Part shown: positions 51,075 to 54,496 of the stretch, piece by piece
Position numbering within the stretch: position 1 is the first letter of the stretch
How the letters are laid out: every line of letters starts with the position of its first letter
Assembly: GCA_028820655.1 (NCBI GenBank)
Contig: JAPPIK010000056.1
Location: forward strand, 275,880-339,879
Direction of reading: 5' to 3'
Length of the DNA stretch: 64,000 bases
Source of the DNA: Candidatus Poribacteria bacterium
GTDB taxonomy: Bacteria > Poribacteria > WGA-4E > JAJDTR01
Translations under genes and position numbers: made by a program
The notes under the pieces: model-generated
Databases searched by the model: none
What the model was told of the DNA's origin: nothing
The model's input: the letters and a program-made list of their open reading frames with translations, nothing else

Positions 51075-52226
51075 CTAGGCGTAAATTAGAAACGGTTTCC
51101 GTCTTCGCGCAAATTCATCAAGGTCATTGCGCCAACTTTGAAGGATGTCGGCTGGAGATTGCCTAGCGATGAGTGCCCTACGCAGCGAATCCGTTCCCGC
51201 CAACAGATCAACAAAGTGTGTCCCATCCGCCACAGAAAACTCGAAACGACTGGGATAGGATTCTATAACCGTCGCTAGAAGATGGAGGACGATCTCAAAC
51301 GGCATAGCTCGTTCTCTATCCATTACGTGGACACCCACGCCATGGCACAACTCGTCCGAATATTTCGAAATCGACGGCACAAAATGAACGGGTCGGAATC
51401 GCACACCAAGAATTCCCAAATCGTTCATGGTCTCCGACCACCCGTCGGCATCCAGCCAAGGTGCGCCAATCCATTCAAACGGTTTTGTCGTCCCACGTCC
51501 TTCCGACAAGTTAGTACCCTCTATAAGACATGTCCCCGGATAAAGAATCGCCGTGTCCAGAGTTGGCATACTGGGCGATGAAGGCACCCATGGCAGCCCA
51601 GTTTGGTCGTACCACAAATTTCTCCTCCAACCGCGCATCGGAACCACCTCAAGTTGCAGGTCTAGTCGTAATTCAGCTTTGAAGAGAAGCGCGAGTTCGC
51701 CGATGGTCATGCCGTGCCGTATTGGGATCGGATGCGCACCGACGAAAGATATGTAGTCCTGCTGAAGCAATGTCCCCTCGAATCGATTCCCGCCAATGGG
51801 ATTCGGCCGATCCAAAACTATAAACTCAACATCATTCTCGCAGGCTGCCCGCATCGACAGAAGCATCGTGGTGATAAAGGTGTAGTAACGCGCGCCTACG
51901 TTCTGAATGTCGTACACCAACACATCGATACCCTTCAACATTTCCTGTGTTGGCTGAAGAGTGTCACCGTAAAGACTGTGGATCGGTATCAAGAGATGCT
52001 CATCGCTCGCAGAGGGTACTTTGAGCATATCCTGATGGTTTCCCCATAGTCCATGCTCGGGACTGAAAAGCGCCGTAAGACGGGTCTTCGGGCAGGCCGC
52101 AAAAAGGCTAACATTGCTCCGAAGATCTTCATCGACCCCGGTTTGGTTAGTGATTAGACCGATGTTTTTTTCTTCAATTAGGTGTGGTTTTTCACGGAGT
52201 AGAACCGTCAGTCCGGTCTCAATCAT
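51075..52226 (-). CDS. namZ: NamZ/YbbC-like exo-beta-N-acetylmuramidase (DUF1343, GH171)
   Basis: The 383-residue protein matches DUF1343: LITNQTGVDEDL, LFSPEHGLWGNHQ with the proposed catalytic Glu, VYDIQNVGARYYTFITTM, IVLDRPNPIGGNRFEG and PIRHGMTIGELALLF. B. subtilis NamZ removes MurNAc from the non-reducing end of muropeptides. This copy lacks a signal peptide, so it probably acts in the cytoplasm. Its ATG shares one base with the stop of the gene before it (TAATG), which shows tight coupling. Confidence 0.9.
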   Translation of the reverse strand: MIETGLTVLLREKPHLIEEKNIGLITNQTGVDEDLRSNVSLFAACPKTRLTALFSPEHGLWGNHQDMLKVPSASDEHLLIPIHSLYGDTLQPTQEMLKGIDVLVYDIQNVGARYYTFITTMLLSMRAACENDVEFIVLDRPNPIGGNRFEGTLLQQDYISFVGAHPIPIRHGMTIGELALLFKAELRLDLQLEVVPMRGWRRNLWYDQTGLPWVPSSPSMPTLDTAILYPGTCLIEGTNLSEGRGTTKPFEWIGAPWLDADGWSETMNDLGILGVRFRPVHFVPSISKYSDELCHGVGVHVMDRERAMPFEIVLHLLATVIESYPSRFEFSVADGTHFVDLLAGTDSLRRALIARQSPADILQSWRNDLDEFARRRKPFLIYA

Positions 52227-53269
52227 TAGTTGTACGAACCGAAGATCAATTCATGAAACCTATCCCGAAAACCAAGAATGCCTTCACGGGTCGCTTCCGG
52301 ATGAACCCGATTTGTAAGCAGTATGGCAAACATTTTTCGTCCAGGATGAATGCGAATGGATGTACCTGTGAAACCGCTGTGATAAAGCGAGCCGTCTTCT
52401 AGAATGATCCAACCGACGCTGCGATCCGAATTCAACCCCGCAGTATGGATTTCGCTCAGTTGATCGACACTATCAGATGATAATACACTGTCTCCGTCAT
52501 TGAGGAGAATCTGACAGAAGAGTGAGAGATCACCTGCAGTTGAAAAAAGACCGGAGTTGCCGGCAACACCGCCCAGAAAATTGGCGTTTTCATCATGGAC
52601 CTCTCCGCAGAGCACTCCCGCACGCCAATTGTATCGTTCCCCGTTTGCCATGCCTCTTTCGAACCTGTTAGAGTCCTCCGTGGCGGCACAATTGCTTTTC
52701 CATGCAGACGGAGGGCAGTACCGTGTTGCCATCATTTGGGCAGGTGAGAAAATCCTTTTCCGCGCCAAACGGTCAAGCGATTGTCCGGTAGTGTGTTCAA
52801 TAAGTTCGCCTAGCAAAATATACCCGAGACAACTGTAGACAACCTGCTGACCAGCCGGATATTCGAGTCCTATCTTTCCAAGGTACCGTGAAACCTCATC
52901 TCTCGATTTTACATTGAGATAGACCGGACGCCACGCGGGCAATCCGGAGGTGTGGGTGAGAAGGTGAAGGAGTGTGATTTCTTCGCGGTTGAATTCGGGA
53001 AGGTACGTTTTGACGGGATCGCCTACATCCAATATCCCGTCTTCCGCGAGCAGCGTGACCAGTGTCGCAACCACGATTGGTTTGGTCAACGACGCGACAT
53101 CAAAGATGGTATCACGCCGCATTGCCTCCAATTGCGGCCGCACCATGCGGTGTCCGAACGCTTCGTGATAGATAACCTTTCCCTCTTCAGCGATTACGGC
53201 AACCGCACCTGGGAAGACCTCATCAGAAATACCTTGCTGAAGCAGGGCGGAAATCTGATCAGAACTCAT
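52226..53269 (-). CDS. Serine beta-lactamase-fold hydrolase, AmiE/YbbE-like
   Basis: The 347-residue protein has SxxK as S60-L-T-K63 (VASLTKPIVV), the second motif as YSC at 145-147 in place of YxN, and HSG at 297-299 for KTG. In B. subtilis a protein of this fold, AmiE, splits MurNAc-L-Ala and is encoded next to namZ. The coupling with the NamZ-like gene supports the same role here. No signal peptide. It is the first gene of the four-gene minus-strand operon. Confidence 0.82.
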   Translation of the reverse strand: MSSDQISALLQQGISDEVFPGAVAVIAEEGKVIYHEAFGHRMVRPQLEAMRRDTIFDVASLTKPIVVATLVTLLAEDGILDVGDPVKTYLPEFNREEITLLHLLTHTSGLPAWRPVYLNVKSRDEVSRYLGKIGLEYPAGQQVVYSCLGYILLGELIEHTTGQSLDRLARKRIFSPAQMMATRYCPPSAWKSNCAATEDSNRFERGMANGERYNWRAGVLCGEVHDENANFLGGVAGNSGLFSTAGDLSLFCQILLNDGDSVLSSDSVDQLSEIHTAGLNSDRSVGWIILEDGSLYHSGFTGTSIRIHPGRKMFAILLTNRVHPEATREGILGFRDRFHELIFGSYN

Positions 53270-53375: not shown

Positions 53376-54470
53376 TCAAAACTGTTGGAACCAGTTTGCC
53401 TTCGCAACCACGACAAATGCCTGTCCCGGCACGATTTCAAGGTCGCCGTCGAGTTGGCCGGATGCAATATCACCGGGACGGAACGGGTGAAATTTACCGT
53501 CGGCGAAAATCGAAATGAGCGAAATTCTAGCCAAAAAGTCCGGATAGCGAGCGAAGTCACTAACATGTTTGATGCTAGTATTTTTGTTAGGAATACCAAC
53601 CAGATTGGGCCCCGGGATTATTCGAACCGCGCCTTCCACCGGATCGCCGGTAAGCTCCAACATTACGGTGTTCCTCAAGGATACGAGTATTCCCGTGTAA
53701 GGCAGAATCGGCGCGTTAGCCGGAAAGTCGACATTGGAAGGCTTGAAGAACGCTTGAAACTGCGTCTCACGAGTCCGTTCCGGCGCCGGCGTGGTAATCA
53801 ACCAGTTGACATTACCCTCCCCGCCGAGGATATCAAACAAATCGCTAACCTTTGCGACAGTACGAGATGCGCCGTTGAATTCAGTGACCACGCTCGGAAA
53901 ATGAACCAAACTGGTACCGGACGGCACTGTCAATCTGAAGGTTCTAAGTAACTTGAGTTGTTCAATGAGAGTGTCGATACTCTCGCGGTGGGTAGTATTT
54001 CCAACAGACCTATAGCGGATTATCCCGCTCTTGTCTATGACAAACGCGGATGGTTTAGCGAAGAGTCCGCCATCAACCCCGTAAGCCCTAATGGTCTTCT
54101 TGTCCTCGTCAGCTAGCACCGGGAATTGGATCCCTTCTGCCTGAACAACCTGTACCTTCGATTTTGCCGGTGAGTCGACGCTTATGACGTAAAGTTCGGC
54201 GCCGAGCCGCTGGAATTCGCGATAATTGTCCTGCAACTCTACGAGTTGCTCAACGCAGAACGGTCAGAACACACCACGATAAAAGATGACAATCACATTC
54301 TCCGACCCGCGATGGTCGCTCAACGTGATGAATTCGTTATCCGTGTTCGGAAGCGTAAAATCCGGAGCTTCATCGTCAACCTTATTTCCAACTGCACCTT
54401 GAGCACTGCTAAGAGCGCTAAACACAAATACAACTATCAAAAGCAAGCCAAATCGGTAGTGTATCTTCAC
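53376..54470 (-). CDS. Selenocysteine-containing peroxiredoxin with C-terminal beta domain
   Basis: The 364-residue product needs the in-frame TGA at 54264-54266 to be read through as selenocysteine (residue 69). The context is [16 protein letters not shown]; related AhpC/TSA proteins have the peroxidatic Cys exactly there (FYRGxWCPxC), so the site becomes UxxC with Cys72. The frame is open on both sides: [16 protein letters not shown] before, [15 protein letters not shown] and [17 protein letters not shown] after. An N-terminal hydrophobic segment ([17 protein letters not shown]) suggests export. Residues from about 185 form an added beta-rich region (SLVHFP, NLVGIP). GTG at 54470 follows GGGAGG. 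A hairpin follows the TGA. Confidence 0.8.
54233..54249 (-). promoter_or_regulatory. Candidate bacterial SECIS hairpin
   Basis: On the minus strand GCAACUC and GAGUUGC form a perfect 7-bp stem closed by a GUA loop. The loop lies at 22-24 bases after the UGA, inside the range reported for bacterial selenocysteine insertion elements, and it begins with G as these do. Confidence 0.6.
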
Positions 54471-54496
54471 CTTATTTAAACCTCCCATAGTGTACA

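Follow-up and report, generated by a model that had tools for sequence, protein, structure and literature searches.

A predicted UxxC selenoprotein with a fused C-terminal module in a Candidatus Poribacteria genome

The minus strand of the analysed window, a stretch of 64,000 nucleotides from a Candidatus Poribacteria genome, carries a reading frame that runs from a GTG codon at 54470 to the TGA at 53376-53378 and contains a single internal stop, the TGA at 54264-54266, within the peptide FYRGVF-U-PFC (Table 1). This continuous frame agrees with the first-pass annotation, as does its expectation that the gene would be divided: a standard ORF finder reports two ORFs, of 92 aa (54542-54264) and 286 aa (54236-53376), and ordinary gene callers would therefore split the selenoprotein gene in two. 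When the internal TGA is read as selenocysteine (Sec), the product contains only two chalcogen residues other than Met, U69 and C72, which are its sole Sec and Cys. Judging from its N-terminal sequence, the protein is probably exported via a signal peptide.

Table 1. Features of the predicted selenoprotein gene, in coordinates of the window
Feature	Position	Strand	Basis
Shine-Dalgarno-like GGGAGG, 10 nt 5' of GTG	54481..54486	-	read directly from sequence
Complete predicted selenoprotein gene, GTG to terminal TGA, 364 aa including one Sec	53376..54470	-	frame; orthologue in same-genus genome G001, 75% identity over 364 residues
Putative N-terminal signal peptide, residues ~1-25	54396..54470	-	sequence inspection; pLDDT <50 for residues 1-25
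AhpC/TSA-like thioredoxin-fold domain, residues 31-153	54012..54380	-	PF00578 E 5.8e-33; Foldseek to AhpE
Predicted Sec UGA codon, U69, first position of UxxC	54264..54266	-	frame, homologue alignment
C72, sole cysteine, at structural position of Prx peroxidatic Cys	54255..54257	-	AhpE alignment
SECIS stem, 5' arm GCAACUC	54243..54249	-	exact pairing, covariation
Apical loop GUA of the SECIS, G in first place (bSECIS model)	54240..54242	-	PMC13188914
SECIS stem, 3' arm GAGUUGC	54233..54239	-	exact pairing, covariation
P140, cis-Pro position of thioredoxin fold, catalytic Arg in peroxiredoxins	54051..54053	-	alignment; PMC2757866
C-terminal module, mainly beta, residues ~176-364	53379..53945	-	profile searches, structure model
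Terminator TGA, true stop	53376..53378	-	kept in G001; protein similarity stops there

The domain that follows the putative signal peptide scores 113.9 bits against PF00578 (cut-off 26) and, with its UPFC motif, belongs to the class named 'Prx-like 1' (pfam00578, UxxC) in the GOS survey (PMC2398784) and 'Prx-like thiol:disulfide oxidoreductase' in a 2026 review (PMC13188914). The nearest folds to the structure model of the protein (pLDDT 80.8) are AhpE and Bcp, with Foldseek TM scores to AhpE of 0.84-0.89 (on target). The first-pass annotation had placed the UGA exactly at the peroxidatic Cys of AhpC/TSA proteins, and this assignment has to be corrected: in the AhpE alignment, which is ungapped through the active site, U69 aligns with the Thr of PxxxTxxC and C72 with the peroxidatic Cys, while R65 takes the place of the Pro and P140 that of the catalytic Arg, so that the signature of canonical peroxiredoxins (PxxxTxxC plus Arg) is not found. 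Among 23 homologues, R65, P140 and the site of U69 do not vary and 22 have Cys at the C72 position, and the UGA corresponds to the first Cys of FYRGxWCPxC relatives. Of the Sec peroxiredoxin with a UxxC site and an added beta domain that had been proposed, the Sec, the UxxC and the additional C-terminal domain are thus retained, and the peroxidatic position of the Sec is not.

A UxxC motif combined with a cis-Pro, without the Prx triad, indicates a thioredoxin-like rather than a peroxiredoxin site, and the corrected Sec position shifts the expected chemistry from that of a peroxidase to that of a UxxC disulfide oxidoreductase. Because U69 and C72 are the only chalcogens besides Met, the redox cycle must run either through a selenenylsulfide between U69 and C72 or with the help of an external thiol. 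The protein is best read as a secreted Prx-like 1 UxxC thiol:disulfide oxidoreductase with a fused C-terminal module, and its main role is likely to be thiol:disulfide exchange rather than peroxide reduction, although it may have peroxidase activity. The strongest competing view makes the protein a genuine peroxiredoxin that acts as a hydroperoxidase, with a peroxidatic Sec and a resolving Cys72. It draws on the AhpC/TSA family as the top domain match and on the peroxiredoxins AhpE and Bcp as nearest folds; moreover, reaction with peroxide is chemically conceivable for a selenol that occupies the first place of CxxC. We consider it unlikely, since RxxxUxxC replaces PxxxTxxC and Pro replaces the catalytic Arg, which removes the peroxide-activating triad, and since a canonical TxxU PrxQ is already encoded in the genome.

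The protein shares with Prx-like 1 (PMC2398784, PMC13188914) the domain family, the Sec position and the UxxC motif, as well as abundant Cys homologues, and differs from it in the putative signal peptide and the fused C-terminal module. It has the AhpC/TSA fold and an active-site Sec in common with PrxU (NF040737, TxxU), but its Sec lies three residues earlier, the triad Thr and Arg are missing, and it reaches only 50.2 bits against a cut-off of 270 with a UxxC instead of a TxxU motif, which places it outside that family. ResA/TlpA-type proteins share the CxxC position (with Sec first here), the cis-Pro and a likely extracytoplasmic location, and a ResA model gives the best NCBIfam E-value (7.5e-20; 71.5 bits, cut-off 170), whereas by Pfam and by fold the protein is closer to AhpC/TSA. 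SelL is a UxxU protein; the model of SelL-related redox proteins (NF040769) aligns over residues 34-138 (E 1.4e-12) at 47.6 bits, below its cut-off of 120, which leaves the protein outside that group.

The internal UGA is conserved well beyond this genome. The orthologue in another genome of the same genus (G001) is 75% identical across both halves, has TGA at the identical codon and lies among the same neighbours; differences between the two genes fall at third codon positions in 21 of 41 cases before the UGA and 99 of 180 after it, a bias showing that the coding signal continues 3' of the UGA. Across the phylum, 79 of 85 genomes contain a match, and TGA is present in all but three of the approximately 150 matches listed, these three, two in G068 (L169, L170) and one in G046 (L171), having Cys at the site. 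Bacterial homologues beyond the phylum carry FYRGxWCPxC, as collected with a TGY codon pattern that can retrieve Cys forms alone, and these sequences were used as controls. Both states that the first-pass annotation suggested looking for at the site, Cys and UGA, occur among homologues, with UGA in nearly all of those from the phylum, and an in-frame UGA aligned with Cys and followed by continued coding is the pattern of a selenoprotein. The Sec form is retained throughout a bacterial order.

The UGA is followed by the hairpin that had been noted from the sequence, a perfect 7-bp stem with a GUA loop that begins 15 nt 3' of the UGA, with a UGA-to-loop distance of 21 nt and an MFE of -9.2 kcal/mol. 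These values agree with every rule of the published bacterial SECIS model, namely a loop of 3-9 nt with G among the first two places, a stem of 4-16 bp, a UGA-to-loop distance of 16-37 nt and an MFE <= -7.5 (PMC13188914). An Rfam search of the region returned no match, as expected from the variability of bacterial SECIS elements. By itself the fold energy is unremarkable (z -1.06 for 60 nt, z -2.24 for 37 nt), and such a hairpin arises in about 2% of synonymous recodings with local codon usage. That it is more than a chance structure follows from its conservation and covariation in Sec homologues and its absence from Cys homologues: all six inner pairs are kept in 29 of 30 Sec homologues and in none of 82 Cys homologues. 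Among 33 distinct but related Sec sequences, 97.8% of cells are paired, three pairs are changed on both sides (A-U to G-C, C-G to U-A and G-C to U-A), the covariation score is reached in 0 of 500 shuffles, and pairing falls to 15-53% in slid registers. Nearly all Sec homologues have a GGN or GUN loop. One Cys homologue from G068 (L170) retains the peptide QLxELQ with codons that do not pair, and thus codon choice in the Sec forms follows the RNA and not the protein only.

The selenocysteine machinery, whose absence would have told against Sec, is complete in the host genome (G000; 5.88 Mb, 95% complete). Contig C51 carries a cluster of selA (590.8 bits), selB (351 bits) and a tRNA-Sec whose anticodon is UCA; selD, which itself contains a UGA, is located on contig C22. 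All six single-contig genomes have selA, and for this reason its apparent absence from some TGA-carrying drafts, such as G034 and G043, is probably due to assembly gaps. No selA above the cut-off was found in G068, a 61% complete genome of the same class, both of whose matches are Cys forms.

Other readings of the UGA fare poorly against these data. As a selenium-responsive switch, it would yield a truncated product without selenium and serve mainly for regulation; truncation of this kind is an automatic consequence of Sec decoding, but the UGA occupies an active-site residue that is Cys in relatives and the short product has no visible function of its own, which makes this purpose very improbable. 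A genuine stop, whether in a pseudogene or through a nonsense mutation or sequencing error, could appeal to the weakly unusual fold energy of the hairpin, yet it is hardly credible, because an independent genome of the same genus and nearly all phylum homologues share this TGA, the coding signal persists downstream and the full Sec machinery is present. Genome-wide reassignment of TGA, e.g., to Trp or Gly, without Sec is equally negligible, as we found no evidence for it, TGA terminates 13 of the window's 36 long ORFs as well as the selenoprotein gene itself, and homologues have Cys rather than Trp or Gly at the site. Sequence evidence therefore makes it almost certain that the internal UGA is decoded as selenocysteine.

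The C-terminal module (approximately 180-185 residues) has no match in Pfam or NCBIfam; folded alone, it gives a low-confidence model (pLDDT 67.8) for which the fold search returned no real match. It is conserved in G001, G004 and G021, with an insert separating it from the same Sec domain in the latter two, and recurs at many loci of the order in long open frames of hundreds to >4000 codons. One copy (G000:C1:9031-9588) lies in a 1476-codon frame with, by inspection, leucine-rich repeats, Ig-like repeats and a NYPNPFNPETWIPY tail. While the family and its UxxC motif are already known, the fusion with this module is new to us, and a literature search of incomplete coverage found no report of it. 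G001 and G004 both retain the next gene, which codes for a beta-lactamase-like hydrolase (PF00144). This gene is accompanied in the window (51075-53269) by one for a NamZ exo-beta-N-acetylmuramidase, after which G001 has, by eye, a gene resembling anhydro-N-acetylmuramic acid kinase; the selenoprotein gene may possibly adjoin a cell-wall recycling cluster.

A wider selenoproteome scan covered 2.03 Mb, about 35% of the genome. Read-through scanning by codon usage gave mostly noise, and ranking by hairpin and redox motif performed better; the read-through candidates L230, L274 and L244, without Pfam or NCBIfam match, are not claimed. Genes with one UGA each were observed for FdhA (UHAP), DUF3179 (UPLC), rhodanese-MoeB (PSUSEAG) and SelD (loci L184:2924-5773, L241:1050-2207, L241:18640-19935 and L026), together with two further UxxC/UxxS Prx-like Sec genes in the scanned sequence, all of kinds catalogued in the 2026 review (PMC13188914). 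A UxxC paralogue (L004, G000:C56:155225-155599) with relatives throughout the order begins like a lipoprotein and has a CarboxypepD_reg domain N-terminal to its Prx-like domain, and its SECIS stem shows a double change from C-G to U-A. The Prx-like UxxS selenoprotein L007 (G000:C15:371079-371462) has a relative in G046 (L171, G046:C2:2915799-2916200) with Cys at the Sec position despite the presence of selA in that genome, which, as read from the sequences, is a Sec/Cys exchange within one order. A tandem two-domain PrxQ/BCP gene (G000:C5:27556-28557; L002, L181, L282) has two in-frame UGAs, each in PKDFTGG-U-T, the canonical peroxidatic site (TxxU); of the 66 genomes of the phylum with a match, 63 have two TGAs, and a conserved CTCCGGGATGAG follows most of the UGAs inspected. 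This double-Sec protein is not listed as such in the family table of the review (PMC13188914) and is perhaps a more novel observation than the UxxC fusion.

Taken together, the reading frame, UGA conservation, SECIS, machinery, domain architecture and absent Prx triad found computationally are best explained by Sec insertion, export and a UxxC redox cycle, to which we assign a probability of roughly 0.85. For export, substrate and catalytic cycle, we infer the following course. SelB loaded with Sec-tRNA(UCA) would bind the hairpin 21 nt past the UGA, leading to Sec insertion at residue 69, and the signal peptide would export a product composed of the Prx-like (UxxC) thioredoxin-fold domain and a surface-protein-type beta module. 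U69 would then attack a disulfide or peroxide substrate, C72 would resolve the intermediate as an intramolecular selenenylsulfide with U69, and a reductant outside the cytoplasm would regenerate the enzyme.

Under ordinary annotation, this gene would be split and its active site lost, as would happen to its counterparts in most genomes of the phylum. The locus also offers a natural experiment on SECIS evolution, in which codon choice holds the stem in Sec forms and the stem is absent from Cys forms. More broadly, Sec appears to be retained lineage-wide in secreted or lipoprotein-like thioredoxin-fold proteins. We tentatively suggest, while regarding it as somewhat doubtful, that the extracytoplasmic selenoproteins found across the order might together provide a selenium-based redox shield beyond the cytoplasm. 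These would comprise the present secreted UxxC protein with its surface-type module, its lipoprotein-like paralogues with UxxC and perhaps the PrxQ tandem with two Sec residues, and the C-terminal module would position the enzyme on the cell surface or on surface polymers. The selA and selB genes are reported to co-occur in most genome bins of sponge symbionts from various phyla (PMC5649159), and if the present genome is, as suspected, that of a sponge symbiont, its selenoproteins would supply substrates for such genes.
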